A stretch of DNA of 14,630 nt from Hyphomicrobiales bacterium (lineage in GTDB: Bacteria > Pseudomonadota > Alphaproteobacteria > Rhizobiales > Xanthobacteraceae): the NCBI GenBank assembly GCA_003133345.1, contig PKXB01000059.1:1-14630 (forward strand). Direction: 5' to 3'. The notes beneath the pieces were generated by a model, which worked only from the letters and a program-made list of their open reading frames with translations, was not told where the DNA came from and ran no database searches. The position numbers were made by a program, and so were the translations under genes. Within the stretch, counting starts at the first letter, position 1. Every line of letters starts with the position of its first letter. This document shows, piece after piece, positions 512 to 14,518 of this stretch.

Positions 512-777
512 TGCGCCGCCTCCGCACCGGTGTCGCCGTGCGATCTCAAGCTCTGTCGGCGTCCGGCGGCAATCGCGGCCGGTCGCATCCCCATTGCATG
601 GGGCGGCCGATGAGGCAGAGCAGGGGCCCCATCTGCAAGATGGGGATGCGACCCGAATTCGGACGCATGGGGCCGCCGGCCGCCCATGGCCGCCTCCGGG
701 GTCAGATCCCCGGCTCGCGCCGGGGCCCCTCTTCCGCCCTTCGGCGGCCCCTGCTCCCTGCTCATGCCGCCCCCTCC
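506..777. repeat. Palindrome-rich mosaic bounded by an 18-bp imperfect direct repeat
   Basis: This stretch separates two ATPase genes of one operon and is dense in inverted repeats. There is a 14-bp perfect inverted repeat, GGTCGCATCCCCAT at 581-594 against 640-653. Shorter stems lie inside and beside it: CCCCAT/ATGGGG (589-594/598-603, 3-base loop), CCCCATCT/AGATGGGG (627-634/638-645, 3-base loop), CCGGGG/CCCCGG (696-701/708-713), CCCCGGC/GCCGGGG (708-714/719-725) and CCGCC/GGCGG (734-738/743-747). Several share arms, so they exclude one another. The block is bracketed by direct repeats at 506-523 and 760-777 (15 of 18 identical), each holding an SD, a start codon and ATGAGC on the minus strand. 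I infer a dispersed intergenic repeat element, but copy number cannot be judged from one window. Confidence 0.75.
508..765 (-). CDS. 85-codon frame through the repeat, coupled to both ATPase genes
   Basis: No recognised domain. The frame starts at ATG 765-763 inside the stop of the upstream ATPase (ATGA) and ends in a TGA that overlaps the ATG of the next ATPase (again ATGA). An SD (GGAGG, complement of 773-777) precedes it. The peptide is rich in Gly, Pro, Arg, His and Ala and looks like translated palindromic DNA rather than a folded protein. Its likely role, if any, is to carry ribosomes across the repeat so that the downstream ATPase stays translationally coupled. It could equally be a chance frame, since GC-rich DNA has few stops. 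What favours translation is the exact ATGA coupling at both ends. Confidence 0.3.
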   Translation of the reverse strand: MSREQGPPKGGRGAPARAGDLTPEAAMGGRRPHASEFGSHPHLADGAPALPHRPPHAMGMRPAAIAAGRRQSLRSHGDTGAEAAQ

Positions 778-1469
778 GTGCCGAAGTACGCTTCCTGCAC
801 CGCGGCGCTGGCGCGAATCGCGTCCGGCGCGCCCGACTCCAGCACGCGGCCGTCGACCATCACTGTCAGCCGGTCAGCGAGCGCGAACACCGCGTCCATG
901 TCGTGCTCGACCAGCATCATGGCGTGCGCTTGTTTCAGCTTTTGCAGCAGTTCCACCATGCGCGCCGAGTCCTCGCTGCCCATGCCTGCCAGCGGCTCGT
1001 CGAGCAGCAGGATGCGGGTGCCCGCCATCAGCGCGCGCGCCAAGGCCACCATCTTCTGCTGGCCGCCGGACAATTCGAGTGCGCGGCGCTGCGTGAAGCG
1101 CGCCACCTCCGGCATGATGGTAAAGATCCATTCCAACCGCTGGTCGACGCCGTCGACGCGCGTCGACCAGGTCGGCAGGCGGATGTTCTCCTCCACCGTA
1201 AACTCCGGCACCAGCCGGCGGTCTTCCGGCATGTAGCCGACGCCGTGGCCGGCGCGGCGGTGCGCCGGCAGCGCCAGCAGATCGATGTGCCCGAGGTCGA
1301 CCTTGCCGGTCGCTGGGATTGCGCCCATCAGCGCGCGCAGCAACGTGGTCTTGCCGGCGCCGTTGCGGCCGATGAGCCCGCACATCTCGCCTTCGTTCAC
1401 GGCGAGCGAGGCGTCGCGGATGATCGGGATCGGCCCAATCGAGACATTGAGGTTCGACACTTTAAGCAT
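762..1469 (-). CDS. livF: LivF-type ABC transporter ATPase, first copy
   Basis: A 235-residue ATP-hydrolysing subunit of the Liv-type importer. It has Walker A GRNGAGKTT (34-42), the LivF-like stretch GYMPEDRRLVPEFTVEEN (78-95), a canonical signature LSGGQQK (133-139), Walker B ILLLDEP (153-159) and the switch histidine in VEHDMD (H189). It ends in EAYFGTE, a tail common in this family. The ATG at 1469 overlaps the end of the LivG gene by eight bases, which indicates coupled translation. It would pair with the LivG-type subunit, whose own signature loop is unusual, so this canonical site may matter for ATP hydrolysis in the heterodimer. Length is normal for LivF (about 235). Sharing the operon with a second LivF is unusual. 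Confidence 0.93.
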   Translation of the reverse strand: MLKVSNLNVSIGPIPIIRDASLAVNEGEMCGLIGRNGAGKTTLLRALMGAIPATGKVDLGHIDLLALPAHRRAGHGVGYMPEDRRLVPEFTVEENIRLPTWSTRVDGVDQRLEWIFTIMPEVARFTQRRALELSGGQQKMVALARALMAGTRILLLDEPLAGMGSEDSARMVELLQKLKQAHAMMLVEHDMDAVFALADRLTVMVDGRVLESGAPDAIRASAAVQEAYFGTEGAA

Positions 1470-2250
1470 GGCCAGGCCTCGCCGCGGTGGGTTTCAGCCG
1501 CACGCCGCTGATCAGCTCCTGCACGCGGGGATCATCCAGCGTCTCGGTCGGTGTTCCGTCCGCGATGATGGTGCCGTCATAGAACGCCAACACCCGTTCG
1601 GCGAAACGCGCGACGATCTCCATGTCGTGCTCGACGAAAAGTACGGTGATCTTGCGGGCCTTGAGCGCCGACATCACCACATTCATCAGGTCGAATTTCT
1701 CTTCGATCGAGATGCCGCTGGTCGGCTCGTCCAGCAGCAGCAGGCGCGGCCAGCCGACCACCGCCATGCCGATATCGAGCAGCTTGCGCACGCCCTGCGG
1801 CAGTGTATTGGCGGCCGTGTCGCGATAGCGGCCGATCTGGAACAACTCGATAGTCGCCTCCGCCTCAGCGGTGGCGGCGCCCGAGTGCACCGGCGAGGCA
1901 ATGTTGCCCCAGACACCGCCGGCGCGCCGCGCAATCGCCGCCGCCATGCAAATGTTCTCGAACACGGTGAGCGACGGAAAAATCTGCGCTACCTGGAACG
2001 AGCGCGAAATGCCGAGCCGCGTGATCTCGCGCGACGGCTTGCCGGTGATCTCCCGGTCCTCGAACCAAATGCTGCCTTTGCTGGGCTTGAGATGGCCGGT
2101 GATCATGTTGATGAAGGTGGTTTTGCCGGCGCCGTTGGCACCGATCACGCCCACCGTCTGCTCGGCCGGCACACTGATGGTGATGTCGCGGGCGGCGACC
2201 AGCGAGCCGAAGGTCTTTTCCAGATCGCGCACGACTAAAATCGCGCTCAC
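1462..2250 (-). CDS. livG: LivG-type ABC transporter ATPase with atypical signature loop
   Basis: A 262-residue nucleotide-binding subunit of the importer. I place the start at GTG 2250-2248, where it forms a GTGA overlap with the livM stop. The open frame extends upstream to 2484, but that extra sequence is livM read in another frame. Motifs: Walker A GANGAGKTT (37-45), Q-loop SFQVAQIF (Q86), the LivG-type insertion around 98-135, Walker B LLLLDEP (170-176) and H-switch VEHDME (H208). The ABC signature, normally LSGGQ or LSYGQ, reads LPQGVRKLLDIG (150-161), so only the glycine is conserved. From memory, a LivG subgroup has LPxG at this point, so this may be a family trait rather than decay. 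It suggests one degenerate ATP site in the heterodimer. Confidence 0.93.
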   Translation of the reverse strand: MSAILVVRDLEKTFGSLVAARDITISVPAEQTVGVIGANGAGKTTFINMITGHLKPSKGSIWFEDREITGKPSREITRLGISRSFQVAQIFPSLTVFENICMAAAIARRAGGVWGNIASPVHSGAATAEAEATIELFQIGRYRDTAANTLPQGVRKLLDIGMAVVGWPRLLLLDEPTSGISIEEKFDLMNVVMSALKARKITVLFVEHDMEIVARFAERVLAFYDGTIIADGTPTETLDDPRVQELISGVRLKPTAARPGHA

Positions 2251-3194
2251 GATTTCGCCTCCCGGCGCCGCTTGAGCCGCGCCACCAGCGAGCCGAGGCC
2301 ATCCGGCAGGAACAGGATCGTGAGCAGCAGCACCGAACCGAGCGTCATCTGCCAAAGTTGAGGCATGACATCGAAGGCGAACGAACGCACCGCCTCGAAC
2401 ACCAGCGAGCCGACAAAAGCCGCCGCCACCGAGCCGGCGCCCGCCAGAATGGTGACGAAGACGAAGCCGCCGGAGGTCGTCCAATAGGCCATGTTAGGAT
2501 CGACATGGCCGATTGCCAGCGCCGCCAGCGCCCCGCCCAGCCCGCCGAGAATGCCGGCGACCACCACTTTAATATGGATGATGCTGGTCACTGACACGCC
2601 GAGAAACTCGACGCGGATTTCATTGTCGCGGATCGGCGCCGCCAGCGCGCCGGCGACCGAGCGGAAATAGACGCCGACCAGCACGGCGCCGATGGCGTCG
2701 ACGCCGAGCGTGAGCCAATACAGCGCCAGGCCAAGCGCATCGCGATGCGGCGCGTAGCCGAGGAAGGTCGGCGTCGCCACGCTGAAACCGTCGGTCGAGC
2801 CGAGCGACTCGGATTTCACCAGCACGCCGTACAGGATCATCGACAGCGCCAGACTGAGCATGGCGAAGAAGATTTCGCGGTAGCGCGCCAGCAGGAAGCC
2901 GATCAAGACCGCCATCAGCCCGGCCGCCACGCCGCCGATCAGCACCAGCGCAAACGCATCAGTGAAGCCGGTCCAGCGCGCGGTGAGCGAGACCGCATAG
3001 GCGCCGATGCAGTAATAGAGCGCCTGTCCGAACGACACCAGGCCGGCGCGCCACAGCACGACCAGGCCGAGCACCACCAGCGCATTGGCAAACGCGATGG
3101 TGACGAGCGACACCACCCAATCCGGCAGCAGCGGCGCCGCCGCCGCGGCAAACAGGAACATGAGGCCGCCGGCCAACTGCCCACGCCCGCCCAT
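2247..3194 (-). CDS. livM: LivM-type ABC transporter permease
   Basis: A 315-residue inner-membrane permease of the Liv-type importer. Hydrophobic segments begin near residue 9 and recur to the C-terminus, as expected for about 8-10 membrane helices. Family features include VLWRAGLVSFGQALYYCIGAY near residues 47-67 and the glycine-rich stretch around TILAGAGSVAAAFVGSLVFE, which holds the cytoplasmic loop that contacts the ATPase. It ends with LFLPDGLGSLVARLKRRREAKS, the usual basic cytoplasmic tail. The ATG is at 3194, one base after the livH stop, and its own stop overlaps the livG GTG start. It would form the transmembrane channel as a heterodimer with LivH. Confidence 0.93.
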   Translation of the reverse strand: MGGRGQLAGGLMFLFAAAAAPLLPDWVVSLVTIAFANALVVLGLVVLWRAGLVSFGQALYYCIGAYAVSLTARWTGFTDAFALVLIGGVAAGLMAVLIGFLLARYREIFFAMLSLALSMILYGVLVKSESLGSTDGFSVATPTFLGYAPHRDALGLALYWLTLGVDAIGAVLVGVYFRSVAGALAAPIRDNEIRVEFLGVSVTSIIHIKVVVAGILGGLGGALAALAIGHVDPNMAYWTTSGGFVFVTILAGAGSVAAAFVGSLVFEAVRSFAFDVMPQLWQMTLGSVLLLTILFLPDGLGSLVARLKRRREAKS

Positions 3195-3195
3195 G

Positions 3196-4092
3196 TCAGA
3201 TCTTTCTCGGCTGCGCGCGCACGAACAGTCCGTAGGGCCGCACCACCAGCACCAGCGCCATCACGCCGTAGATGACGAACAGCTCGATCTGCGGCACCAG
3301 ATGCACGGCGGCGGCGCGGCAGATGCCGACGATCAGCGCGCCGACCAGCGCGCCTTCGATCGAGCCCATGCCGCCGATGGCGACCACCGCGAAAGCGAGC
3401 ACAATCACCTCGACGCCGATGCCAAGCGTGACCGCGATCTTCGGCGCCATCACCGCGCCGCCGAGCGCTCCCAGCATGGCGCCGATGACGAAGGTGACCG
3501 TGTAGACCAGCGTGACATTGACGCCGAAGGCCGCCGCGGTTTCGCGATCGAAGATCACGGTCGTGAGCAGCCGGCCATAGCGGGTGAATTTCAGCGCCCA
3601 ATAGGCGAGGCCCGCAAGCAAGGCCGCAATCGCCACCAGCACGATGTCGTAGTTGGACAGCACCAGCTCGCCGATCTCGATGTTGCCGGCCGACACCATC
3701 GGCTGATAGGCCGCATAGGACTGCGGACCCCAGATCAGCACGATGACGTCCTCGAGGATGAGGAAGGTCGCGTAGGTGACCAGAACAATGATCACCTCGT
3801 CCTTGCCGTAGACCAGCCTTAAGATTCCGCGTTCGAGGATGATGCCGAGCACCAACCCGATCGCCATTCCCATGGCGAGCATGAGCAGGAAGCCGATGGC
3901 CGCCGGCCAATCGGCATTGGTATAGATGCCGACCGCGGTGGCGGCGCCATAGGCGCCGAACGCATAGAACGAGCCGTGCGCGACGTTCAAAATCTTCATC
4001 ACGCCGAAAATCAACGTCAGGCCGATGGCTACGATGAACAGATAGGCCGCGTAGACGAGGCCGTCGGTCAGAATGGCGGAGGCGGTCAGCAC
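3196..4092 (-). CDS. livH: LivH-type ABC transporter permease
   Basis: A 298-residue inner-membrane permease, partner of LivM. The start is GTG at 4092-4090; the protein opens with a helix and the family hallmark LTLIFGVMKILNVAHGSFYAFGAY (around residues 25-48). The C-terminal half has the glycine-rich GGMGSIEGALVGALIVGI loop seen in LivH proteins and ends LVVRPYGLFVRAQPRKI. No clear SD precedes the GTG; ribosomes may reinitiate after livK, or the true start may differ slightly. The gene is separated from livK by 98 bases and from livM by a single base. Confidence 0.93.
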   Translation of the reverse strand: MLTASAILTDGLVYAAYLFIVAIGLTLIFGVMKILNVAHGSFYAFGAYGAATAVGIYTNADWPAAIGFLLMLAMGMAIGLVLGIILERGILRLVYGKDEVIIVLVTYATFLILEDVIVLIWGPQSYAAYQPMVSAGNIEIGELVLSNYDIVLVAIAALLAGLAYWALKFTRYGRLLTTVIFDRETAAAFGVNVTLVYTVTFVIGAMLGALGGAVMAPKIAVTLGIGVEVIVLAFAVVAIGGMGSIEGALVGALIVGICRAAAVHLVPQIELFVIYGVMALVLVVRPYGLFVRAQPRKI

Positions 4093-4190: not shown

Positions 4191-4203
4191 TCAGTTGCAC
4201 TTG
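4176..4203. repeat. Perfect 14-bp tandem duplication over the livK stop
   Basis: ATCAGTTGCACTTG occurs twice in tandem, at 4176-4189 and 4190-4203. Copy 4190-4203 encodes the last residues and the stop of the binding protein. The other lies just downstream of the stop on the minus strand. Because 14 is not a multiple of three, the extra copy is out of frame but harmless, as it lies after the stop. Confidence 0.9.
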
Positions 4204-5501
4204 GCGCCCTTCATGCCCTCGGCGATCCACTTGTCGGCATCGATGCCGGCCGGCGGGTTCACGCATTCGGCCGGGTAGCGGACGATGTCGACGATCTCCG
4301 GCTCTTTCTTCTGCTTGTTGAAGCGATAGGTGCCGTAGGCCGTTTCGGTGATGCCCTGATGGCCGTCGCCGAGCACCATTTTCACCTGGCCAGCCGGACC
4401 CTCATACTCGATGCCCTTGAACGCGGCGGCGATGGCGTCGGCGTTCGGCTTGCCCCCGGCCTTGGCGGCCTTCTCATAGGCGAGCTTGAGGCCGAGCAGC
4501 GACTGCGCCATCTGGTAGGCTGTATAGGTCGGCGGGACGTTGTAGCGGTCGGTATAGACCTTCTGGAACCACTTGTTGATCTCGGTGTCGCGCGCGAGCG
4601 GGCCGTTGGCGCCGCGGGCGCCGATGATAGTGCCGTCCGGCAGCTTGTCGCGCAGACGCCAGATCGCCGCTTCGCCGGCGGTCATGATGATGGTCATGCG
4701 CTTGTCGAGACCGCGCGCCTGTTCCTGGTAGATGAAGCCTTCGAGGTCGCCATCGTAGAAACTGGTGTGCAGCGCCTGCGATTTCGAGGTCAGCAGGGTC
4801 GAGACTTCGGCGCCGTATTCACCGGCGAAAAGCTTCGGGAACAACACCTTGTCGACCGTGACCTTGGGCGCCAGAACTTTCATGGCGCCAACGAAGTCGC
4901 GCCAGGAATCCTGGCCCCAGGCGTAGTTCTGGTTGATGCCGGAATAGCTGGTGACGTTTTTCTTCTTGGCGAGCAGGTAGCGCGCGGCGGCGACGTTATC
5001 CATGGTCGCGTGCGGGCTGACGCGGAACACGTAATTGCGCGCCTTCTCCTCGAAGATGCGCGGCGTGCCGCAATCGTAAAAGACGGTGAGCGCTTTGAGT
5101 TCTTCCGCCACCGGCGTCACCGCCAGGCAGCTGCCCGACGACACGTAGCCGATCACGGCGTCGACCTGGTCGCGCTGCACGAGGTTGCGGAATTCGGTCA
5201 CGACGTTGGCGGCCGAGCCGGCCTCGTCGACATATTTCGCTTCGACCTTGCTGCCGGCGAAGCCGACCGTGTTGAACGGCGCCGGCGCCTTGCCGGCATT
5301 GAGCGCTTCGATGACGATCTCGGCGCCGTTGCGGCCCGGAATGCCGAAGGGCGAGGCGGCCGGGCCGGTGAGAAACGAAACGATTCCGAGTTTGACCGGA
5401 GTGGCCGCAGGCGCGGTCGGTTGTGCCTGAGCCGCGACCGCAGCGGTCGCCACGGCAAGACCGGCCAGCCCCCATCGAATTACAATTGCACGATGCGACA
5501 T
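4191..5501 (-). CDS. livK: Periplasmic substrate-binding protein of Liv-type ABC importer
   Basis: A 436-residue exported binding protein of the Peripla_BP_6 / LivK type that captures the solute and delivers it to LivH/LivM. The N-terminus is a classical signal peptide: basic residues, a hydrophobic run GLAGLAVATAAVAA, then AQA with probable cleavage after residue 26. The mature part opens with VKLGIVSFLTGPAASPFGIPGRNGAEI, the family's first lobe and ligand-loop region. Four cysteines are visible, in SGSCLAV, FYDCGTP, AECVNP and the C-terminal KCN; disulfides are possible. The ATG at 5501 is backed by a strong SD (AGGGGAGGAA, complement of 5508-5517). Proteins of this type bind branched-chain amino acids but also aromatic and alicyclic acids, amides and urea, so the ligand cannot be read directly. 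The divergent acyl-CoA operon points to an organic acid. Confidence 0.93.
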   Translation of the reverse strand: MSHRAIVIRWGLAGLAVATAAVAAQAQPTAPAATPVKLGIVSFLTGPAASPFGIPGRNGAEIVIEALNAGKAPAPFNTVGFAGSKVEAKYVDEAGSAANVVTEFRNLVQRDQVDAVIGYVSSGSCLAVTPVAEELKALTVFYDCGTPRIFEEKARNYVFRVSPHATMDNVAAARYLLAKKKNVTSYSGINQNYAWGQDSWRDFVGAMKVLAPKVTVDKVLFPKLFAGEYGAEVSTLLTSKSQALHTSFYDGDLEGFIYQEQARGLDKRMTIIMTAGEAAIWRLRDKLPDGTIIGARGANGPLARDTEINKWFQKVYTDRYNVPPTYTAYQMAQSLLGLKLAYEKAAKAGGKPNADAIAAAFKGIEYEGPAGQVKMVLGDGHQGITETAYGTYRFNKQKKEPEIVDIVRYPAECVNPPAGIDADKWIAEGMKGAKCN

Positions 5502-5523
5502 TGCAACTTCCTCCCCTAAACGT

Positions 5524-5736: not shown

Positions 5737-5751
5737 TGGCACATACTTTGC
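5737..5751 (+). promoter_or_regulatory. Predicted sigma-54 (RpoN) -24/-12 promoter
   Basis: TGGCACATACTTTGC matches the RpoN consensus TGGCACG-N4-TTGC at every core position except the G after TGGCAC. The invariant GG (5738-5739) and GC (5750-5751) have the required spacing. The GC would place transcription start near 5763, leaving a short leader that still contains the GGAG ribosome site (5767-5770) before the ATG at 5777. If real, the operon needs an enhancer-binding activator, which is not encoded in the window. Confidence 0.7.
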
Positions 5752-5776
5752 GGAGTCTGCGCCATTGGAGACCCTG

Positions 5777-7033
5777 ATGTCAGACATGCACCCCCCGACC
5801 GACCCGCTCCCCATGGAACGCTTGCCCCGGCTTCGACCGGGGGCGGGGTTCGCAATGTTAGACGGCGTGCGCATTGTGGACCTGACGACCTCGATCGCGG
5901 GACCTTTTGCCACGCAGCTTCTGGCCGACTTCGGTGCGCAGATCGTCAAGATCGAGCGACGGGGCAATGGCGACGATGCAAGAGCGTGGGGGCCGCCATT
6001 TCTGGATGGCGAAGCGCTTTGGTTCATTTCAGTCAATCGCAACAAGCGCAGTCTTGCGCTAGACTACGGAAAGCCGGACGGAGCGGCAGTGCTGCGCGAA
6101 CTCATCGCGAAAGCCGACGTAGTCGTTCTGAATCAGCCGCCGCGCGTTTCCAGCAAGTTTGGCCTCGACGTCGAAAGCGTGCGCAAGTTGCGCCCCGATA
6201 TCATCTACGTCTCGATCACTGGCTTCGGGCTCGACGGCGAACGTTCCGATTGGCCATGCTACGATCTCATCGCCGAGGGCTATTCGGGCGTCATGGATTT
6301 GACCGGCGAGCCGGGAGGCGAACCGCAAAAGATCGGAGCGCCGGCGGCCGACATGCTGGCGGGACAGGATGCGGCGCTCGGTGCGCTGGCCGCGCTGTAC
6401 GGTCGAACGCGTAGCGGGCTTGGCCATGTCATTGATATCGCTCTTGTGGATTCGATGACGCGGTTTCTGGCCTGCCGGATCGTTCCATATCTCGGTTCCG
6501 GTGAAATTCCGCGCCGTTCCGGCGGGAAGGACAGCGTGATTGCCATTTATCAGGCGTTCGATACCGCCGATGATCCAATCACGCTCGGCCTTGGCAATGA
6601 CAGCAGTTGGAAGCGCTTCTGGGTCGCCGTGGGCCAGCCGGAACGAGCAGAGGACAAATCGACGGCTTCCAACAAGGATCGCCGGATGCAGCGTGCTAAG
6701 ATCGTCGCCGATATCGCAGCATTGCTCAAGACGCGACCGCGCGCGCATTGGTTATCGGTGCTTCGTGCCGCCCGTATTGCGTCCGGGCCGATCAACCGCT
6801 TGGACGAGGTCAGTGCGGATCCGCTTCTGCTCCAGCGCGGACTATTTTATTGTCTTGAAGACGGTGAGCGGCGGGTTCCCCAAGTGGGGCTCGGAATTCG
6901 TATCGACGGAGTCTCGTCAAAGCCCCGCCGCAGACCGCCGTTGTTGGGTGAACATAGCGAGGAAGTTCTGCGCGAGATCTTAGGCTATGATGATGCCAAG
7001 ATCGACGAATTGCGGCGGCAAGATATCATCTGA
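5777..7033 (+). CDS. CaiB/BaiF family III acyl-CoA transferase
   Basis: Transfers CoA from one thioester to a free carboxylic acid, a ligase-independent way to activate a substrate or recycle CoA from a product. From ATG 5777 it has 418 residues. The family core starts at about residue 27 (MLDGVRIVDLTTSIAGPFATQ), followed by GAQIVKIER and the formyl-CoA-transferase-like YDLIAEGYSGVMDLTGEP (162-179). The predicted catalytic aspartate is D192 in GAPAADMLAG. I prefer 5777 because GGAG lies six bases upstream. The frame can be read from TTG 5765, and ATG 5855 would give a protein without the 26-residue N-terminal extension. It is the first gene of the operon, just behind the sigma-54 site; the next gene begins 12 bases after its stop codon. 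Base composition here looks less GC-rich than in the liv genes. Confidence 0.88.
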   Translation: MSDMHPPTDPLPMERLPRLRPGAGFAMLDGVRIVDLTTSIAGPFATQLLADFGAQIVKIERRGNGDDARAWGPPFLDGEALWFISVNRNKRSLALDYGKPDGAAVLRELIAKADVVVLNQPPRVSSKFGLDVESVRKLRPDIIYVSITGFGLDGERSDWPCYDLIAEGYSGVMDLTGEPGGEPQKIGAPAADMLAGQDAALGALAALYGRTRSGLGHVIDIALVDSMTRFLACRIVPYLGSGEIPRRSGGKDSVIAIYQAFDTADDPITLGLGNDSSWKRFWVAVGQPERAEDKSTASNKDRRMQRAKIVADIAALLKTRPRAHWLSVLRAARIASGPINRLDEVSADPLLLQRGLFYCLEDGERRVPQVGLGIRIDGVSSKPRRRPPLLGEHSEEVLREILGYDDAKIDELRRQDII

Positions 7034-7044
7034 AGGGGGTCAGG

Positions 7045-7824
7045 TTGGCGTTCGAGACCATTGTTTACGAAGAAGAAGGGCCGATCGGGACGATCACGAT
7101 TAATCGGCCCGACGACGGCAACATGTTCACGCCGGTGATGTGTCACGAAATCCGTGACTGTATCGAAGGCGTCCGGCGTGAGACGCGCACCCGGGTGCTG
7201 GTGCTCACCGGCGCCGGCGACCGTTTTTTCTGCATCGGCGGTCGCAAGGACGGCATGGAAAAAACGATCCTGTATGCCGGAACCTTGCCGACGTTGGAAA
7301 TGTACGAAGCGATCGACAAACTGCAGAAGCCAGTCATTGCCAGCGTCAATGGCTACGCTGTCGGCGGCGGCAATGTGCTGCAGATGGTTTGCGACATAAC
7401 AATCGCAAAGGAAAGCGCGATCTTCCGCCAGGTCGGCCCGATGATGGGCTCATTCGATGCCGGCTATGGCACCTGGTATTTGGAAGATCTTGTGGGCAAG
7501 AAGAAAGCCAAGGAGATATGGTTTCTCAATCCTAAGATTACAGCACGCGAAGCTTTGGCACTCGGCCTGATCAACACGGTGGTCCCCGACGACAAGCTCA
7601 AGGAAGAGACACGACGTCTGGCATTGGAAATCTGCGAGCGCGGACCGTTTGCGCTGGCGTCGGTGAAGGCCGCTTTCAATGCTAGGCACGGCGGCGTCAG
7701 CGGCCTCGCCCGGCTATCGCATGACTTGCTGTTGCGCTCGTATCTCGAGAGCGACGAAAGCCATGAACTGAGCGCATCGTTTGCCGAGCGCCGCAAGCCT
7801 GATCCGTCGAAGTTCGGGAGCTAA
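7045..7824 (+). CDS. MenB/BadI-like crotonase, probable ring-opening beta-ketoacyl-CoA hydrolase
   Basis: A 259-residue crotonase-fold enzyme. The start is TTG at 7045 with SD AAGGGGG at 7034-7039. It matches the MenB/BadI branch rather than classical hydratases: VNGYAVGGGNVL (101-112), then QVGPMMGSFDAGYG (129-142) and KKKAKEIWF (152-160). From memory, R. palustris BadI (2-ketocyclohexanecarboxyl-CoA hydrolase) reads closely alike through this stretch and through the tail ESDESHE...RRKPD, and has nearly the same length. D138 in GSFDAGYG corresponds to the MenB/BadI active-site aspartate. Classical hydratase glutamates are missing. The likely reaction is hydrolytic C-C cleavage of a cyclic beta-keto-CoA ester. 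An oddity is that the GGDQ that follows the oxyanion loop in BadI/MenB is GGRKDG here (65-70), suggesting a different ring substrate. A DHNA-CoA synthase role is unlikely, as no menaquinone genes are near. Confidence 0.82.
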   Translation: MAFETIVYEEEGPIGTITINRPDDGNMFTPVMCHEIRDCIEGVRRETRTRVLVLTGAGDRFFCIGGRKDGMEKTILYAGTLPTLEMYEAIDKLQKPVIASVNGYAVGGGNVLQMVCDITIAKESAIFRQVGPMMGSFDAGYGTWYLEDLVGKKKAKEIWFLNPKITAREALALGLINTVVPDDKLKEETRRLALEICERGPFALASVKAAFNARHGGVSGLARLSHDLLLRSYLESDESHELSASFAERRKPDPSKFGS

Positions 7825-7827
7825 TGG

Positions 7828-9447
7828 GTGCGGCCGTTCCTGACACTTCACCATCCTGCGCGCGCGCGCCGCTATTACGCCGAGGGAACGTGGCGGAACG
7901 ATACGTTTTATAGCCTGCTTGCGGGCCACGCGAAGGCGCGCCCGGATGCCGCCGCGCTGCGCGACGGCGGGCGGCGACTGGCGTGGCGTGAAGTCTTGGC
8001 CTGGGTCGATGGCATGGCGGCCGATCTGCGCCGGCACGGGCTCGTGGGCGGCGATCGCGTCTCGATCTGGATGTCCAACAAGCTTGAGACGATCATTACA
8101 TTTCTGGCCTGCGCGCGTGAGGGCTTTGCCTGCAATCCGTCGCTCCACCGCACCTATACTTGCGCGGAGATCGTGCAGCTGATCGATCGTCTGCAGGCCA
8201 AGGCGTTCGTCACCGAACCGGGCTGGGGCGCCGACCGCGCCAACGTCGATTTCGACGCCATGCTCGGGCAGGTCAGCTCGCTTCGCAATGTGTACAGCCG
8301 CGACACATTTCCGCAGGCGGGGCCGGCAATTTCAAAACCCGTCGAAGACCCCGACAAAGTCAGCTATCTCGCCTTCACGTCGGGCACGACGGGAACGCCG
8401 AAATGCGTGATGCATTCCGACAATACGTTGTTGGCGAATGCACGCGATCTGGTGCGCGATTGGGGGCATGGTCCACAAACCGTTCTGCTCAGCCTGTCGC
8501 CACTGTCGCACCACATTGCCTGGGTCGCGGTGGCGCAGTGGCTGCTGGCGGGATGTGAACTGGTGACCGACGACCCGCCGGCCGGAATGAGCCGCCTGGA
8601 TTGGATCATCGAGACAGGCGCGACCTATGTCATGGGCGTACCGACCCATGCGATTGACATGCTTTCGGAGCAACGCAAGCGCAACATCGCGCAAATGGGT
8701 GAGGTCAAATTGTTCTATATGGCAGGCTCGCCGATTCCACCCTCGGTGTGCGAGGCCTTCGTCCGGCAGGACATCAAGCCTCAGAACATATACGGCATGA
8801 CAGAAAGTTCGTCGCACCAATACACGCATCCCGATGATGATGAGGCAACGATCGTCAAGACTTGCGGTCGCGGGGGCCCGGCTTACGAGGTGCGTTTGTT
8901 CGATCCGCTCGATTCCGATCGTGAGGTTCCGCCAGGAACGGTCGGACAAATTGCCGGGCGCGGCGCGGCGTTGATGCTCGGCTATCTCGATAATCAGACG
9001 GCGACTGAACAAAGCTTCAACAGCGACGGTTGGTTTCTGTCGGGCGATCTCGGTGTGCTCGACGCTCGCGGCAATCTAAAGATCGAAGGCCGTCTCAAGG
9101 ATTTGATCATCCGCGGCGGCCACAACATCTATCCCTCCACGATCGAAGCGCTGGCGTTGCGGCATCCGGATGTTACGAAAGCGGCAGCCTTTCCAGTCCC
9201 CGACGAACGCCTCGGCGAACGTGTCTGCTTGGCGATTATCGGGACGACCGGCGGCGAGGCACTATTGCAGCACCTGCATGGCGAAGGACTGTCGAAATAC
9301 GATATGCCTGAATTCTTTATTCGCGTGGACGCCTTCCCGCTGACCGCCAGCGGCAAGATTCTCAAGCGTGAACTGGTGCGAATGGTCAAGCGCGGCGAGC
9401 TCTCGCCGCAGCCGGTCCGCTTCGGCCGTTCGAAGGAGGTCGCCTGA
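7828..9447 (+). CDS. Acyl-CoA synthetase (AMP-forming), AliA-like carboxylate-CoA ligase
   Basis: A 539-residue ANL-family ligase that adenylates a carboxylic acid and transfers it to CoA in the cytoplasm. Core motifs: P-loop TSGTTGTPK (184-192), IYGMTES (321-327), GWFLSGDLG (401-409), hinge GRLKDLIIRGGHNIYPSTIE (421-440) and the C-terminal catalytic lysine K510 in PLTASGK. The start is GTG 7828, three bases after the previous stop; the ATG at 7824 is out of frame. Its C-terminus overlaps the next start (TGATG). Length and overall layout resemble AliA, the cyclohexanecarboxylate-CoA ligase of R. palustris, and medium-chain or aromatic acid ligases. Substrate cannot be fixed from motifs. The gene order argues for an alicyclic or branched carboxylic acid. 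Confidence 0.9.
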   Translation: MRPFLTLHHPARARRYYAEGTWRNDTFYSLLAGHAKARPDAAALRDGGRRLAWREVLAWVDGMAADLRRHGLVGGDRVSIWMSNKLETIITFLACAREGFACNPSLHRTYTCAEIVQLIDRLQAKAFVTEPGWGADRANVDFDAMLGQVSSLRNVYSRDTFPQAGPAISKPVEDPDKVSYLAFTSGTTGTPKCVMHSDNTLLANARDLVRDWGHGPQTVLLSLSPLSHHIAWVAVAQWLLAGCELVTDDPPAGMSRLDWIIETGATYVMGVPTHAIDMLSEQRKRNIAQMGEVKLFYMAGSPIPPSVCEAFVRQDIKPQNIYGMTESSSHQYTHPDDDEATIVKTCGRGGPAYEVRLFDPLDSDREVPPGTVGQIAGRGAALMLGYLDNQTATEQSFNSDGWFLSGDLGVLDARGNLKIEGRLKDLIIRGGHNIYPSTIEALALRHPDVTKAAAFPVPDERLGERVCLAIIGTTGGEALLQHLHGEGLSKYDMPEFFIRVDAFPLTASGKILKRELVRMVKRGELSPQPVRFGRSKEVA

Positions 9448-10214
9448 TGACCGTCCATCTTACCCGCCGGGAAGCGGTGGCCATCCTGACGCTCGATCGC
9501 CAGGAGGGACTCAATGCGCTCTCGTTCGCGATGTTGCGGGAGATCGGCGACGCCATCGATCAGGTCGCGCAATCGGACGCGCGGGCGCTGATCGTGACCG
9601 GAGCGGGCCCCAAGGCGTTCTGTGCCGGCGCCGACATCAAGGAGCTGCGCGGGCGCAGTCTGCTGGAGCAGAAGCGCGGCGCCGAGCTCGGCCAAGGCGT
9701 TTTCGCCAAGCTAGACGCTCTCGCGGTGCCGTCGATCGCGGTCATTAACGGTCATGCCTTCGGCGGCGGGCTCGAATTGGCAATGGCGTGTACGTTCCGC
9801 CTGGCCGCGTGCTACGCCAAGATGGGCTTGCCCGAGATCAAGCTCGGCTTGATCCCCGGTTATGGCGGTACGCAGCGCCTGCCGCGGCTAGTCGGCGAGG
9901 CGCGTGCCTTCGAAATCATCGCGACTGGCCGCACGGTGGATGCCGAAGAGGCGCTTCGCATCGGGCTGGTGCATCGGTTGATCGACGGCGATCCGCTCGA
10001 GGCCGGCATGGACTTTGCGCGTGAGATCACGGGATTCAGTCTGTCGACACTCGGATTTGCCCGCGCCGCGGTTCAGCGCGCGGCGCAGCTTTCGCTCAGC
10101 GAGGGCCTCAAGGCGGAAGCGGAGCTTTCGACGCTGGCCTACCGGACGGCGGATGCCGAAGAAGGCATGGCGGCCTTCGTCGAAAAAAGGAAACCGGATT
10201 TCCGCGATGCGTGA
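9447..10214 (+). CDS. Enoyl-CoA hydratase (classical crotonase, BadK-like role)
   Basis: A 255-residue hydratase that adds water across an alpha,beta-unsaturated acyl-CoA. Both catalytic glutamates are present: E110 in FGGGLELAMAC and E130 in GLPEIKLGLIPGYGGTQRL. The oxyanion-hole segment is FCAGADIKEL (58-67), and the tail is EKRKPDF. Unlike the crotonase at 7045, this one keeps the complete hydratase active site, so the two paralogues probably catalyse different steps: hydration here, ring hydrolysis there. The start ATG overlaps the ligase stop by one base, and the 3' end overlaps the SDR start by eight bases. In the proposed pathway it hydrates the cycloalkene carboxyl-CoA made by the acyl-CoA dehydrogenase. 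Confidence 0.93.
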   Translation: MTVHLTRREAVAILTLDRQEGLNALSFAMLREIGDAIDQVAQSDARALIVTGAGPKAFCAGADIKELRGRSLLEQKRGAELGQGVFAKLDALAVPSIAVINGHAFGGGLELAMACTFRLAACYAKMGLPEIKLGLIPGYGGTQRLPRLVGEARAFEIIATGRTVDAEEALRIGLVHRLIDGDPLEAGMDFAREITGFSLSTLGFARAAVQRAAQLSLSEGLKAEAELSTLAYRTADAEEGMAAFVEKRKPDFRDA

Positions 10215-10917
10215 TGGCTGGATCATAGTGACCGGCGCCAGTCGCGGCATTGGCGCGGCGATTGCCAGCGATCTGGCGCGCCGCGGTGCCAAGGTGACGG
10301 CGTTATCGCGGTCCGGAAATGTGTCCGCAGGTCTGCGTGGTATTGCCTGCGACGTGTCCGATGAGGCTGCGCTTGCCGCGGCATTCGAGACTCTGAGCAA
10401 GGACGGCCCCATCGTCGGCATCGTGAATAACGCGGGTCAGCATCGTGGTGGGCCCAGCGCTACGCTCACGGCCGGGGACTTCGAGAGCCTGATGCGACTC
10501 AACGCGACCTCGGTCTTCGTCGCAAGTCGCTTGGCCTATCCCTATCTCGTGAAAGCCGGCGGCGGGACGATCGTCAATATTGGCTCGTTCTTCGACAAGC
10601 TCGGCGTCGCCGAAAATCTCGCTTATTGTGCGTCGAAAGCCGCGGCCGGTGCGATCGCCCGCTGTCTGGCGGTTGAATGGGCGCGCGACAAAATCCGCGT
10701 GTTCAATGTCGCGCCGGGCTATATCGAGACCGATCTCAATCGCGAATGGCTGACAAGCGAGCGCGTTCAATCCTGGATCAAGCGCCGAGTGCCTGTCGGC
10801 CGGCCCGGCCAGCCGGACGAGGTCGCGCGGCTGGTGGGATGCCTGATGGCGGAAGACATTGGCTTTCTCACCGGCGAGACGATCTATATCGACGGCGCCC
10901 ACGGAATAAATCACTGA
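10207..10917 (+). CDS. Short-chain dehydrogenase/reductase (BadH-like role)
   Basis: A 236-residue classical SDR. The start ATG 10207 lies inside the hydratase gene; the longer frame back to 10015 is rejected because the fold begins at MRDGWIIVTGASRGIG. Motifs: nucleotide-binding TGASRGIG (9-16), acidic CDV (48-50), NNAG (74-77), and the catalytic tetrad N99, S127 in NIGSF, Y140 and K144 in YCASK. PGYIETDL follows as usual. It would oxidise the 2-hydroxyacyl ring CoA ester to the 2-keto ester with NAD(P)+, producing the substrate for the BadI-like hydrolase. It is slightly shorter than the usual 245-255 residues. A FabG-like reductase in the reverse direction cannot be excluded, but the gene set is catabolic. 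Confidence 0.9.
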   Translation: MRDGWIIVTGASRGIGAAIASDLARRGAKVTALSRSGNVSAGLRGIACDVSDEAALAAAFETLSKDGPIVGIVNNAGQHRGGPSATLTAGDFESLMRLNATSVFVASRLAYPYLVKAGGGTIVNIGSFFDKLGVAENLAYCASKAAAGAIARCLAVEWARDKIRVFNVAPGYIETDLNREWLTSERVQSWIKRRVPVGRPGQPDEVARLVGCLMAEDIGFLTGETIYIDGAHGINH

Positions 10918-12083
10918 TGAAAATCTTAAAGCAGCTTGAGCAGCGCCGTAAGTGGGCCGAGGACGAGCGGATCCTGCTCGATCAGGTGCGCCGCATTGCC
11001 GACACCGTCATTGCGCCGAACGCGGCGCGTTACGACCGCGAGGAGGCGTTTCCGCAAGCCAGTGTCGATGCTGTCAAGTCGCTCGGGCTCAATGCGATTT
11101 TCGTGCCGGAAGCCTATGGCGGCGCGCCGATGTCCTACCGGCTTTATCTCGCGGTCGTGCAAACGATCGCGGAAGCCTGTGCATCGACCGGTGTCATCTA
11201 TGCCACTAATTTCCATGGCATGAAGCCGCTGATTGATTTCGGCACCGAGGAGCAAAAGAAGCGCTTGCTGCCGCGCGTGGCCGCGGGAGCGCTCGCTTCG
11301 CTCGCCATCACGGAAGCGGCTGGCGGTTCCGACGCCACCGCCATGACGATGCGCTTCACGCCCGATGGTGACGACATTGTCGTCGACGGGAACAAGCTGT
11401 TCATAACCAGCGGCGACGTCGCCGATCTGTTGCTCGTGTTCGGGAAATGGAGCGAGATCGAGGATCCGAAGCAGGCCATTTCCTCACTCATTTTTGAGAA
11501 GGACACGCCGGGTTTCGAAGTGGTGCGCGTCGAGGAAAAGCTCGGCCACCGCGCCTCGTCGACGGCGACGCTCGCCTTTAACCAGTGCCGGGTGCCGCGC
11601 GCCAATCTTCTCGGCAAGCCCGGCGAGGGGCTTGCCCTGCTGCTGGCGTCTCTCAACAAGTCGCGACCGAGCATTGCGGCGCACGCGCTCGGAATTGCGA
11701 CCGCCGCCTTCAAGGACATGGTGGCCTATATGAATACGCGCGCCGTGGGCGGCCACCACGTCATCGATTTCCAGGCCAACCAGTTCCTTATCGCGGACCT
11801 CGCGGCCGAGCTGGCTATGACTGAGGCGTGGCTCGATTATGTCGCCAGTCTCATCGACGACGGCGCGACTGATTTTGGTTTAGAGGCATCGATCGCCAAG
11901 CTGCGGGCCAGCGATCTGGCCATGCGCATGACGACCGAGGCAGTGCAAATGCACGGTGGCTACGGCTATATCCGCGATTACCGTGTGGAGCGTTTGATGC
12001 GCGATGCAAAAATCACCCAAATCTGGGAAGGAACCAATCAGGTGCATCGGCAGCTGATCGGGCGGAGTTTTATCGAAAGATGA
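10917..12083 (+). CDS. Acyl-CoA dehydrogenase (FAD), AliB-like role
   Basis: A 388-residue flavoenzyme that puts a double bond alpha,beta to the thioester and passes electrons to ETF. Motifs: the FAD/substrate signature ITEAAGGSD (131-139), FITSGDVADLLLVFGK (equivalent of the usual WITN...V), QMHGGYGYIRDYRVERLMRDAKITQIWEGT, and the catalytic base E371 in WEGT at the position used by short/medium-chain and cyclohexyl dehydrogenases. The start ATG 10917 forms TGATG with the SDR stop; the frame open from 10677 is rejected since that part is SDR DNA in another frame. Its stop overlaps the next 47-codon frame (ATGA). In the suggested pathway it oxidises the saturated ring-carboxyl-CoA. Confidence 0.93.
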   Translation: MKILKQLEQRRKWAEDERILLDQVRRIADTVIAPNAARYDREEAFPQASVDAVKSLGLNAIFVPEAYGGAPMSYRLYLAVVQTIAEACASTGVIYATNFHGMKPLIDFGTEEQKKRLLPRVAAGALASLAITEAAGGSDATAMTMRFTPDGDDIVVDGNKLFITSGDVADLLLVFGKWSEIEDPKQAISSLIFEKDTPGFEVVRVEEKLGHRASSTATLAFNQCRVPRANLLGKPGEGLALLLASLNKSRPSIAAHALGIATAAFKDMVAYMNTRAVGGHHVIDFQANQFLIADLAAELAMTEAWLDYVASLIDDGATDFGLEASIAKLRASDLAMRMTTEAVQMHGGYGYIRDYRVERLMRDAKITQIWEGTNQVHRQLIGRSFIER

Positions 12084-12223
12084 CGTCGATCATTCGTACC
12101 GTTGGAGTTTGCGGAGCTGCGGGCACTATGGGTGCCGGCATTGCGATCATTGCCGCCGACACGTCGGCTTACGCGCCGGCGTGGCGCGCAGTCATTGCGA
12201 AAATGCGAGAGAAAACCTCGTGA
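12080..12223 (+). pseudogene. 47-codon remnant resembling the N-terminus of 3-hydroxyacyl-CoA dehydrogenase
   Basis: This small frame fills the gap between the acyl-CoA dehydrogenase and the racemase-like gene, overlapping both by four bases (ATGA at 12080, GTGA at 12220). It reads MTSIIRTVGVCGAAGTMGAGIAIIAA and then 21 residues ending AVIAKMREKTS. The first part matches the NAD-binding start of 3-hydroxyacyl-CoA dehydrogenase (GAGTMGAGIA), but with GAAGTMG in place of GAGTMG, so the glycine motif is disturbed. No catalytic part follows. The simplest reading is an internal, in-frame deletion of a full gene that kept both ends and therefore the coupling. A translated microprotein is possible. 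Over 27 bases around TMGAGIA it is 23/27 identical to the second, truncated dehydrogenase at 14327. Confidence 0.6.
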
Positions 12224-13335
12224 GACCGCTCCAAGGCGTGCTCGTTCTGGACTTTTCCACGCTACTGCCGGGGCCGATGGCGACATTGCTCCTGGCTGAA
12301 GCCGGCGCGGAAGTCGTCAAGATCGAGCGCCCGGGCAGCGGCGAGGAAATGCGCGGTTATGTCCCGCGTTGGGGCGCCGACAGCGTCAATTTCGCAATGC
12401 TCAATCGCGGCAAGAAAAGCGTCGCCCTCGACCTGAAGAATCCGAAACAACGCACCAAGCTGGACCCTTTGGTCGCACGTGCGGACATCATCGTCGAGCA
12501 GTTCCGGCCGGGTGTTATGCAACGGCTCGGGCTCGATTATGAAAGCGTCGTCAAGGTCAATCCGCGCATCATCTATTGTTCGATTACCGGCTACGGACAA
12601 ACCGGGCCGAAGCGCGATACCGCGGGGCACGACCTGAATTACATCGGCGATGCCGGTCTTCTTGCGTTGTCGATGGGGAACGGAGATCCGCCTGTGGTTC
12701 CGCCCGCGCTGATCGCCGATATTGCGGGTGGCGCTTACCCCGCAGTGATGAACATTCTGCTGGCCGTGACCGAGCGCGCTCAGACGGGCAAGGGCCGCTA
12801 TCTCGATATCGCCATGACCGACAACCTCTTCCCCTTCATGTATTGGGCGCTGGGCGAAGGGATCGCAACCGGTCAATGGCCGGGCAACAGCGGCAGCCTC
12901 GTGACGGGCGGGACCGCCCGGTATCGGCTCTATCCGACGCGCGACGGCCAAATCGTGGCTGCCGCGCCGATCGAGCAAAGGTTCTGGCAGAATTTCTGCG
13001 CCATCATCGGGCTTGAGCCGCAATATGCTGACGATAAGGATTCCGCCGCCACCGCGGCGCGGGTCGCCGAGATTATCCGCGGCAAAGATGCCGCGCATTG
13101 GGAAAAATTCTTTCAGGAGCAGGATTGCTGCTGCAGCGTAGTCAAGAGTGCGCGCGCGGCGATGACCGATCCGCAGTTCGTCGCCCGCGGTCTGTTCGCG
13201 CACAAGCTGAGTAACGCTCAAGGCCGAGTCATGCCGGCCCTTCCCGTTCCGGTGAGCGATGGTTTCCGCGGCTCGCCCGATACGCCCGTCCCGGCGCCGG
13301 GGCTGGGGGCCCACAACGCGGATTACATCAAATGA
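12220..13335 (+). CDS. CaiB/BaiF superfamily protein, alpha-methylacyl-CoA racemase-like
   Basis: A 371-residue member of the CoA-transferase III fold that probably acts as a racemase, epimerising the alpha-carbon of 2-methyl (or ring) acyl-CoA esters. The active-site residues fit AMACR rather than formyl-CoA transferase: H137-D138 in AGHDLNYIG, D167 in LIADIAGG and E252 in APIEQRF, matching the His-Asp, Asp and Glu of mycobacterial MCR. The start is GTG 12220, giving MRPLQGVLVLDFSTLLPGPMA; the frame opens at 12109, but that stretch has no homology to the family. It is coupled to the remnant upstream (GTGA) and to the next gene (ATGA). Racemases make both enantiomers usable by a stereospecific acyl-CoA dehydrogenase. 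True CoA-transferase activity remains an alternative. It differs clearly from the family III protein at 5777. Confidence 0.85.
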   Translation: MRPLQGVLVLDFSTLLPGPMATLLLAEAGAEVVKIERPGSGEEMRGYVPRWGADSVNFAMLNRGKKSVALDLKNPKQRTKLDPLVARADIIVEQFRPGVMQRLGLDYESVVKVNPRIIYCSITGYGQTGPKRDTAGHDLNYIGDAGLLALSMGNGDPPVVPPALIADIAGGAYPAVMNILLAVTERAQTGKGRYLDIAMTDNLFPFMYWALGEGIATGQWPGNSGSLVTGGTARYRLYPTRDGQIVAAAPIEQRFWQNFCAIIGLEPQYADDKDSAATAARVAEIIRGKDAAHWEKFFQEQDCCCSVVKSARAAMTDPQFVARGLFAHKLSNAQGRVMPALPVPVSDGFRGSPDTPVPAPGLGAHNADYIK

Positions 13336-14330
13336 GAGCGGTCTACGTTCATGCCTTTGCGCCATTTGAGACTGTTGGCGTTGAGGAGGTCCCCGATCCC
13401 CAGCCGGGTCCGGGCGAGATCGTGGTCGACGTGGTCGCCGCCGAAGTCAATTATCCAGATATGCTTGTCATTGCCGGGCAATACCAGTTCAAGCCGCCGC
13501 AGCCGTTCTCGCCGGGCAAGGCAGCGGCCGGGCGGGTTTCCGCGCTCGGCGCGGGCGTGCGCGACTTCGCGGTCGGCGACCACGTCGCCGTCCAGGTCGA
13601 ATATGGCGCTTATGCCGAGCGGCTGAAGGCGCGCGCGGTGAATTGCTTCAGGATGCCGGCGGGCATGCCGTTCCATATGGCGGCGGCGCTGGGACTCGCC
13701 TATCAGACCGCCTGGTTTGCGTTGAAGGATCGCGCCGCATTCAAGTCGGGCGAAATCGTCCTCGTGCTGGGCGCGGCCGGCGGCATCGGTATCGCGAGCA
13801 TTCAGCTCGCCAAAGCGTTCGGCGCCAAGATGGTCATCGCCGGCGTGCGCGGAGTGAGCAACGCGAAGGTGGCGAGCCAAGCTAGCGCCGATCACGTGAT
13901 CGATCTCGACGTTCCCGATGTGCAAGATCGGTTGCGCGAGAAGGTTCATGCGCTGACCGGCAAACATGGCGCCGACGTGGTCATCGATCCCGTGGGCGGC
14001 GACGCCAACGCCGCGGCCTTGCGGGCGCTGGCTTGGTGCGGCCGTATGGTCATTGTGGGCTTCGCCAGCAATCAGATTCCGGCCATCAAGGCCAACTATC
14101 TCCTGCTCAAGAATATTGCGGTCATCGGCCTCCAATGGTCGGATTATCGCGAGCGTACACCGGAGCGGGTGTGCGAAGCTCAGCGCGAGATTTTTACGCT
14201 CTATGAGCAAGGACGTCTCGACCCGCCGATTCGCGGGCGATTGCCGCTCGAGAAATTCGCCGATGGCTTGCGCGCACTGCGTGACGGCAAAGCGCAGGGC
14301 AAGATCATTCTTCAGGTGCGGCCGGAATGA
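13332..14330 (+). CDS. Zinc-independent MDR oxidoreductase, NADPH:quinone reductase-like
   Basis: A 332-residue medium-chain dehydrogenase/reductase. The N-terminal GroES-like domain runs to about residue 125, followed by a Rossmann domain with VLGAAGGIGIASIQLAKAFGA (145-165) and GADVVIDPVGGD. There is no structural zinc cysteine cluster, as in quinone reductases and enoyl-thioester reductases. The usual PGxExAG motif reads SPGKAAAG (60-67), so its glutamate is missing. The protein resembles the QOR-like proteins often found beside acyl-CoA racemases and dehydrogenases; it may reduce an enoyl-CoA or enone intermediate, but the substrate is not evident. The ATG at 13332 overlaps the racemase stop (ATGA), and its stop overlaps the next gene (ATGA). 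Confidence 0.88.
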   Translation: MRAVYVHAFAPFETVGVEEVPDPQPGPGEIVVDVVAAEVNYPDMLVIAGQYQFKPPQPFSPGKAAAGRVSALGAGVRDFAVGDHVAVQVEYGAYAERLKARAVNCFRMPAGMPFHMAAALGLAYQTAWFALKDRAAFKSGEIVLVLGAAGGIGIASIQLAKAFGAKMVIAGVRGVSNAKVASQASADHVIDLDVPDVQDRLREKVHALTGKHGADVVIDPVGGDANAAALRALAWCGRMVIVGFASNQIPAIKANYLLLKNIAVIGLQWSDYRERTPERVCEAQREIFTLYEQGRLDPPIRGRLPLEKFADGLRALRDGKAQGKIILQVRPE

Positions 14331-14518
14331 CGGCACATCCTCAGAGCGTTGTCGCCGTTCTCGGCGCTGGCACCATGGGTGCCGGTATCGCGCAGGCCGC
14401 GGCAAACGCCGGCGTGCGAGTTCTTCTCCATGACGCGAGCGCGAGCGCCGGCTGTCGGTTCCGAAAACTCCATCCATTTGATTCGCGATCGCCGGCGAAT
14501 CAGAACATGATTGCCTGA
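14327..14518 (+). pseudogene. 3-hydroxyacyl-CoA dehydrogenase, truncated by an insertion
   Basis: The N-terminal start of an NAD-dependent 3-hydroxyacyl-CoA dehydrogenase. It carries an intact dinucleotide-binding motif LGAGTMGAGIAQAAA (12-26) and VLLHDAS (32-38). Family similarity stops near residue 42. The remaining residues (CRFRKLHPFDSRSPANQNMIA) look unrelated, and the frame ends at 14518, where full-length proteins have 280 or more residues. A transposase frame begins at the same place, so an insertion sequence has probably split the gene; the rest would lie past the right edge. The ATG at 14327 is coupled to the previous gene (ATGA), placing it as the last known member of the operon. 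Confidence 0.75.

Follow-up and report, generated by a model that had tools for sequence, protein, structure and literature searches.

Gene content of the operon

The window analysed here (14,630 nucleotides) is the entire contig PKXB01000059.1 of a Hyphomicrobiales bacterium, whose 83%-complete genome (assembly GCA_003133345.1) comprises 3.43 Mb in 238 contigs. Between positions 5777 and 14330 it carries eight intact open reading frames (ORFs), termed here A to H, all of them on the + strand, closely packed and in several instances overlapping by a few bases. A sequence-only reading had taken these to form an operon that degrades an alicyclic acid through the five steps of the AliA-AliB-BadK-BadH-BadI route for cyclohexanecarboxylate, supplemented by a family III coenzyme A (CoA) transferase, an AMACR-like racemase and a QOR-like reductase. 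A Pfam scan of the window's ORFs bears out the families predicted for A to H: a ligase, an acyl-CoA dehydrogenase, a hydratase, a short-chain dehydrogenase/reductase (SDR) and an enzyme of the BadI/MenB class do share one operon (Pfam, NCBIfam) with the three additional genes, including an AMACR-like protein that keeps the His, Asp and Glu of its family. The operon is real and conserved, a variation on a pathway type already known, and its individual enzyme classes are ordinary; what is new is the separate crotonase lineage to which B belongs, the sigma54-type control, the coexistence with the known pathway, and the stripped form found in this lineage. The eight genes are:

5777..7033, + strand: A, family III CoA-transferase, like succinate-hydroxymethylglutarate CoA-transferase (Pfam; catalytic Asp kept)
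7045..7824, + strand: B, crotonase of the BadI/MenB class in a separate lineage, proposed 2-ketocycloalkyl-CoA hydrolase (NCBIfam scores, trees, residues)
7828..9447, + strand: C, AMP-forming acyl-CoA ligase (Pfam, NCBIfam, identity to AliA)
9447..10214, + strand: D, enoyl-CoA hydratase (Pfam, NCBIfam)
10207..10917, + strand: E, SDR dehydrogenase (Pfam, identity to BadH)
10917..12083, + strand: F, acyl-CoA dehydrogenase, like AcrC and cyclohexane-1-carbonyl-CoA dehydrogenase (NCBIfam scores, EGTNQ motif)
12220..13335, + strand: G, AMACR-like family III protein (structure match, catalytic residues); its start is most likely the GTG at 12220 rather than the ORF start at 12109
13332..14330, + strand: H, medium-chain reductase of the QOR/PIG3 type (Pfam, NCBIfam)

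The cyclohexanecarboxylate route is encoded by the bad-ali clusters described for Rhodopseudomonas palustris and Aromatoleum sp. CIB (available part of PMC9795900). The operon resembles these in uniting the same five enzyme classes within one cluster, and adds genes for a CoA-transferase, an AMACR-like protein, a QOR-like reductase and, in its complete form, 3-hydroxyacyl-CoA dehydrogenases. The proposed route stands as regards enzyme classes, but not as regards the individual proteins: against the bad-ali proteins of Salipiger abyssi the four compared are only 26-43% identical (C to AliA 28%, F to AliB 26%, E to BadH 26%, B to BadI 43%) and do not qualify as orthologues, whereas the AliA, AliB, BadH and BadI proteins of Paraburkholderia aromaticivorans are 58, 65, 64 and 76% identical to those of Salipiger abyssi. 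D is 42% identical to a hydratase encoded near the Salipiger bad-ali genes.

Among the best 25 NCBIfam models for each protein, none of A to H attains a cut-off. F scores 335 bits with acryloyl-CoA reductase, 291 with cyclohexane-1-carbonyl-CoA dehydrogenase and 149 with AliB, all below cut-off, and carries an EGTNQ motif with the catalytic Glu. In D both of the catalytic glutamates of hydratases seem, by eye, to be retained. The best solved-structure match of A is succinate-hydroxymethylglutarate CoA-transferase (SUGCT, 9br7), and its catalytic Asp is present in 52 of 52 distinct aligned sequences. For G the best such match is the mycobacterial alpha-methylacyl-CoA racemase MCR (PDB 1x74), and G retains the equivalents of MCR His126, Asp156 and Glu241 (present in 49, 49 and 48 of 49 sequences, respectively). 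By this triad G is AMACR-like and may be a racemase rather than a CoA-transferase.

Conservation of the operon in other genomes

The sequence-only reading had called for a search for the same gene order in other genomes, and this order was indeed found. A genome scan gave 85 loci encoding B, the best 80 of which (70-91% identical) were used and come from alpha-, beta- and gammaproteobacteria. Gene presence was counted, at thresholds set by the authors, in the 48 of these 80 loci where B is flanked by 10 kb on either side, the other 32 being left out. Three genes that are not intact in the window recur here: X, a 3-hydroxyacyl-CoA dehydrogenase gene, its partner Y, and I, a further 3-hydroxyacyl-CoA dehydrogenase gene. 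Found in the 48 loci were A in 37, C in 42, D in 42, E in 40, F in 42, X and Y in 41 each, G in 35, H in 29 and I in 27. Because the same genes surround B in most of these loci, their clustering is not due to chance. B, C, D, E and F lie on one strand in 38 of the 48, in 31 of which they are also collinear; an alternative order, C-G-H-(A)-B-D-E-F, occurs in Afipia and Bradyrhizobium, among others.

The operon is partly plasmid-borne. Twelve plasmid records carry B at an identity of at least 60%; of the eight examined (from a gene table that is incomplete), seven show B followed by ligase and dehydrogenase genes. An Ancylobacter plasmid has the arrangement X-Y-A-B-E-F, with neither the ligase nor the hydratase of the operon as a neighbor. 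Two actinobacterial homologues of B (about 52% identity) lie amid genes for a CoA-transferase, a hydratase and two 3-hydroxyacyl-CoA dehydrogenases.

The distribution of the operon is patchy. Within the window's family B occurs in 15 of 149 sampled genomes; among 60 relatives, most of which belong to the window's genus, 7 have it (the window's own genome being included in both counts). In the same family sample 21 genomes have a match to the BadI model of at least 360 bits, 11 of them over the cut-off; such a match occurs together with B in 6 of the 15 B genomes, where 2.1 would be expected by chance, kinship not being controlled for. In Salipiger abyssi the B operon is on one plasmid and the bad-ali genes are on another. 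Since they share genomes in this way, the B operon and bad-ali are not simple substitutes for each other.

A separate lineage of crotonases

The sequence-only reading described B as BadI-like. This holds insofar as B and BadI share a family and active-site residues, but B reaches only 234 bits with the BadI model TIGR03210 (cut-off 467.6) and its lineage is separate from BadI. Its top NCBIfam score (250 bits) is with a MenB model, yet the three MenB models likewise remain below their cut-offs (250, 224 and 155 bits against 380, 342.7 and 378). In an unrooted tree (71 rows), B splits off together with its relatives and with two rows from actinobacteria at a branch support of 100/100, MenB forms a branch at 100/99, and 32 BadI-type rows lie on one side of a branch with support 85/90. 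Judged by these scores and trees, B is no ordinary BadI.

The sister of this lineage is another matter. A grouping of B with non-hydrolytic crotonases had been named as what would refute the sequence-only reading, and on this point the outcome is ambiguous. When two hydratases are included as an outgroup (73 rows), B does group with MenB, a ring-closing enzyme, at 97/90; in topology tests, however, a tree that unites B and BadI survives (p-AU 0.34, by the approximately unbiased test; BadI with MenB, 0.08). The outgroup branch has a length of 10 and attaches among the BadI rows, at forks with 77-82% bootstrap, and the BadI rows form a single group in 0 of 200 bootstrap trees. Because so long a branch falls among the BadI rows, the root of this tree is untrustworthy; taken at face value, it would mean that B and MenB could have arisen from within BadI. 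A quick tree with five outgroup rows supports a single BadI group at 90 and a grouping of B and MenB at 86. The trees thus define B as a lineage of its own but do not fix its sister.

The trees include 17 of the 80 B loci (18 were picked by hand, of which L089 was dropped as short), three of the eight B-type plasmid records, and matches from further searches, those of the window's family and of the relatives among them; L117 (the window itself) and L110 (short) are in none of them. The 71-row tree also omits the five outgroup rows and the long-branch rows L116, L118, L115, L111, L108 and L132, and the 73-row tree omits these same six long-branch rows and three of the five outgroup rows. L112-L114, found with the BadI model, fell with MenB in the quick tree and are counted as MenB, and L133-L142, ten finds of the MenB model (294-320 bits), fell with BadI and are counted as BadI. 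L116, L118 and L115 score 228-278 bits with the BadI model yet, on long branches of the quick tree, fall with none of BadI, MenB and the B lineage; they are possibly further unnamed branches.

Four residues of B (Q129, G131, S136 and D138) are invariant in all 71 rows; they correspond to the active-site positions Q154, G156, S161 and D163 of E. coli MenB. Y233 of B, which 28 of the 29 proteobacterial rows in its lineage share, is level with MenB Tyr258 in a HMMER alignment, though preceded by a gap in a MAFFT alignment. G131 stands, in an alignment by eye, at the position of the first catalytic hydratase Glu of D. B is like MenB in keeping the four residues and, as far as the unreliable root allows, in its placement in the outgroup tree; it is unlike MenB in its sub-threshold scores, in its catabolic-looking operon and at two positions considered below. 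A MenB function for B was considered and rejected: no MenD over cut-off was found in the 83%-complete genome (MenD being the only other men gene searched for), and the operon looks catabolic. A MenB role is therefore unlikely, even though MenB may be the closest kin. Automatic names given to B-type proteins in the source records are 'naphthoate synthase' and 'enoyl-CoA hydratase-related'; if the ring-opening reading is right, such names mislead for proteins of the B lineage.

Promoter and regulation

5737..5751, + strand: sigma54-type -24/-12 promoter, TGGCAC-N5-TTGC (motif search)

This promoter core lies 25 bases upstream of A and is the only match in the search, against 0.03 expected; with a stricter pattern (W at the end) the window matches only if one mismatch is allowed, for which 1.0 chance match is expected. 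The motif (with C or T at base 6) was looked for in 61 loci, some of them near-duplicates; in 32 it lies no more than 250 bp from the first ORF stretch of the operon, against a background of 0.010 per 500 bp (23 other matches in 1.14 Mb). The core is conserved between the window and its closest relative, locus L011, the B of which is 91% identical.

A sigma54 activator is common among the relatives. Flanking genes were scanned with Pfam using 103 upstream and 77 downstream ORFs, hand-picked from 195 and 111, some of which may be antisense shadows (one downstream ORF of L060 was taken on its other strand). Sigma54 activator domains are the commonest upstream match (19 of the 103 ORFs). Of the 48 full-flank loci, 28 have an activator resembling the one in L013, divergently oriented in 26 of these. 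A palindrome, TGTGTC-n9-GACACA, matches at 10 or more of its 12 positions at 15 of 40 upstream sites, against a background of 0.013 per 260 bp; because the count was made largely on the sites where the palindrome was found, and the control is the same loci's background with the sites included, the comparison is partly circular. In the window the best counterpart has 8 of 12 matches, which 43.5% of shuffled sequences equal, and in L011 it has 6 of 12. What the window keeps is the promoter core; the activator beside the operon and the site it probably bound are missing.

This mode of control also sets the operon apart from the bad-ali clusters of Gram-negative bacteria, which carry a MarR-type BadR (PMC9795900, available part). 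No MarR-type BadR was found beside the operon in the window, where the six genes to the left are all importer genes and the contig ends just to the right.

A reduced copy of the operon

The sequence-only reading overlooked that this copy of the operon is incomplete: X, Y and I survive as remnants, and the activator is absent.

12080..12223, + strand: 47-codon in-frame remnant, the start of X fused to the end of Y (alignment to relatives' X and Y)
14327..14450 (end approximate), + strand: I, surviving 5' part of another 3-hydroxyacyl-CoA dehydrogenase gene (Pfam, alignment)

Positions 12084-12219, between F and G, are the remnant of genes rather than a plain spacer. Compared with the relatives, about the first 26 residues of the 47-codon frame are the start of the 3-hydroxyacyl-CoA dehydrogenase X, and its last part is the end of Y; the frame has no Pfam match, being too short for one. 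I starts at an ATG (14327) that overlaps the stop of H, continues for about 40 residues of an NAD-binding domain and is interrupted near 14450; by eye, some 20 bases past the break resemble sequence that soon follows H in L011. L011 likewise lacks intact X, Y and I, with different X/Y breakpoints, and in neither it nor the window is there an activator gene beside the importer; the best matches to the relatives' activator in the window's own genome are partial (38-44% identical). In L172, a more distant locus of the same family, the importer, the sigma54 activator, A, B, C, E, F, X, Y and G lie in a row, although D was not found between C and E. With the local 3-hydroxyacyl-CoA dehydrogenases and the adjacent activator gone, later beta-oxidation and control would have to be supplied from elsewhere in the genome.

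What is left appears to be under constraint. All eight genes are intact, and the ratio of nonsynonymous to synonymous substitution rates (dN/dS) of A to H between the window and L011 is 0.095-0.180, which favors a present function, although this average also spans time before the losses. Divergence from L011 is uneven: over positions 762-7033 of the window, one permease is 100% identical in protein sequence (dS 0.025), gene A has a dS of 0.09, and the other computed genes range from 0.15 to 0.58, which hints at recombination.

Neighboring genes

4191..5501, - strand: substrate-binding protein of a branched-chain-type ATP-binding cassette (ABC) importer, divergent from the operon (Peripla_BP_6)
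2247..4092, - strand: two permeases of the same importer (BPD_transp_2, twice)
2..2484, - strand: three ABC ATPase genes, the last truncated by the contig end (Pfam)

Importers resembling these adjoin B in L011, L016, L039 and L172, and in several records importers of organic-acid types lie next to the operon. Past the broken gene I (14450-14630), the start of a transposase- or integrase-like frame, read by eye, reaches the contig end.

Identifying the substrate from neighboring genes was attempted and abandoned: the flank scans gave regulators, binding proteins and general CoA enzymes. Since no oxygenase was found among the 25 commonest families in each scan (of 106 and 112 families), no substrate can be deduced. 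Two features that recur in few of the flanks were not used as evidence. A CoxGSM-like set recurs in 2 of 93 loci: on two roseobacter plasmids (L143:9711-11496 and L146:5077-6853) genes for CoxG, a 2Fe-2S protein and an FAD subunit adjoin the operon, with sigma54-like sites upstream and with no large subunit in the plasmid gene table, which is incomplete. A type II dehydroquinase-like gene lies by the operon in 4 of 93 loci (L144:8539-8982, L050, L064 and L082); its product has an altered N-terminal motif, and in L144 it adjoins a DUF4286 protein. DUF4286-like proteins occur in 11 to 13 of 93 loci, depending on the query.

Proposed pathway

The operon is read here, with a probability of roughly 0.6, as a diverged module that opens the ring of an imported alicyclic carboxylic acid, probably a substituted one. 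From the chemistry of its enzyme families (activation, dehydrogenation, hydration, oxidation and cleavage) we infer a sequence of activation, one turn of beta-oxidation and then hydrolytic ring cleavage. The importers next to the operon suggest that the acid itself is taken up. Ligase C would form the CoA ester of the ring acid, or CoA-transferase A would do so with CoA from an acyl-CoA donor; the AMACR-like G would set the stereochemistry at the alpha-carbon of the ring acyl-CoA. F would then introduce a 1-ene into the ring ester, D would hydrate it, and E would oxidize the resulting 2-hydroxyl to a 2-ketone; B would cleave the ring by a reverse-Dieckmann hydrolysis, yielding a dicarboxyl mono-CoA ester, as BadI does (ring-cleavage steps described in the available text of PMC9795900). 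In addition, A may transfer CoA back and forth between the resulting diacid and other acids, and H could serve to remove a double bond.

A ring with a substituent or branch is favored as substrate, since it is hard to see what a racemase acting at the alpha-carbon would do for unsubstituted cyclohexanecarboxyl-CoA. This argument of the sequence-only reading is chemically sound, but it presupposes the predicted activity of G, a gene not found near B in part of the loci (see below). A described parallel for a substituted ring is the mrc monoterpene ring-cleavage cluster of Castellaniella defragrans, in which a hydratase, a dehydrogenase and a hydrolase are likewise proposed to open a substituted ring acyl-CoA, perillyl-CoA (available part of PMC4109377). 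The mrc gene set differs from that of the operon, however, and MrcE is 88% identical to an annotated BadI (same part of PMC4109377); the term CoA-transferase is absent from that paper (PMC4109377).

Alternative explanations

Several observations weigh against a ring-opening module at work here. B leans towards a ring-closing enzyme in the outgroup tree; at three positions it departs from nearly all BadI and MenB rows, with M133 and R214 in place of K and D and with W144 in place of A or S; and no characterized activity or substrate was found for any member of its lineage. At the threshold used, 13 of the 48 full-flank loci showed no G near B and 19 showed no H, so that these two genes may not be core, and B is nearly alone in 5 of the 48. 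In a phylum-wide sample B was found in the window's own genome only (1 of 398, with six candidates scored per genome). Moreover, since X, Y and I are not intact in the window and no activator gene adjoins the operon, this copy may not be a working pathway in this organism. That the operon here is a decaying, functionless relic, whatever its role in relatives, is nevertheless distinctly unlikely: the losses just mentioned, the unrecognizable upstream palindrome, the same losses (with other X/Y breakpoints) in L011 and the scarcity of B among the 60 relatives are what such decay would leave, but eight uninterrupted genes with low dN/dS, a promoter core conserved with L011 and a retained divergent importer are not.

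The genes other than B are generic beta-oxidation tools, and AMACR and CoA-transferases are typical of the breakdown of branched-chain acids. The operon might thus degrade a non-cyclic branched or aromatic-derived acid, B having been recruited for another reaction of a beta-keto thioester in which no ring takes part, such as the hydrolysis of an acyclic beta-keto-CoA or a ringless retro-Claisen cut. The separation of B from BadI, its leaning towards MenB and the Ancylobacter plasmid without neighboring ligase or hydratase would fit this. It is unlikely, however, given that BadI and MenB, the nearest lineages, both act on an intramolecular Dieckmann-type bond and that B keeps the residues they share; for an acyclic beta-keto thioester, moreover, ordinary thiolysis would suffice. 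The odds given here rest on B being a separate lineage, not on the identity of its sister. Very unlikely is a merely diverged bad-ali system for unsubstituted cyclohexanecarboxylate in which the additional genes are incidental. The same five enzyme classes and the wide distribution and variable order of bad-ali clusters (PMC9795900, in the part available) speak for it; the low identity to the Salipiger abyssi set, the sigma54-type promoter and activator in place of BadR, the coexistence with BadI-type genes and the presence of an AMACR-like G in 35 of the 48 loci speak against it.

Implications

No description of the operon was recognized in the open-licence literature searched, which does not show that none is in print. 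Beyond the window, the ring-opening reading can be extended to B's relatives, and it is an even bet that the B lineage defines a pathway of its own in proteobacteria--sigma54-controlled, partly plasmid-borne and opening the rings of substituted (i.e., stereochemically complex) alicyclic acids--which has a related gene set in actinobacteria, occurs beside bad-ali in some cells and has been reduced in some lineages to its ring-opening core. If this is true, then scattered soil and marine bacteria carry an unrecognized second route for opening saturated rings beside bad-ali, and enzymes that degrade substituted naphthenic or terpenoid ring acids become testable.

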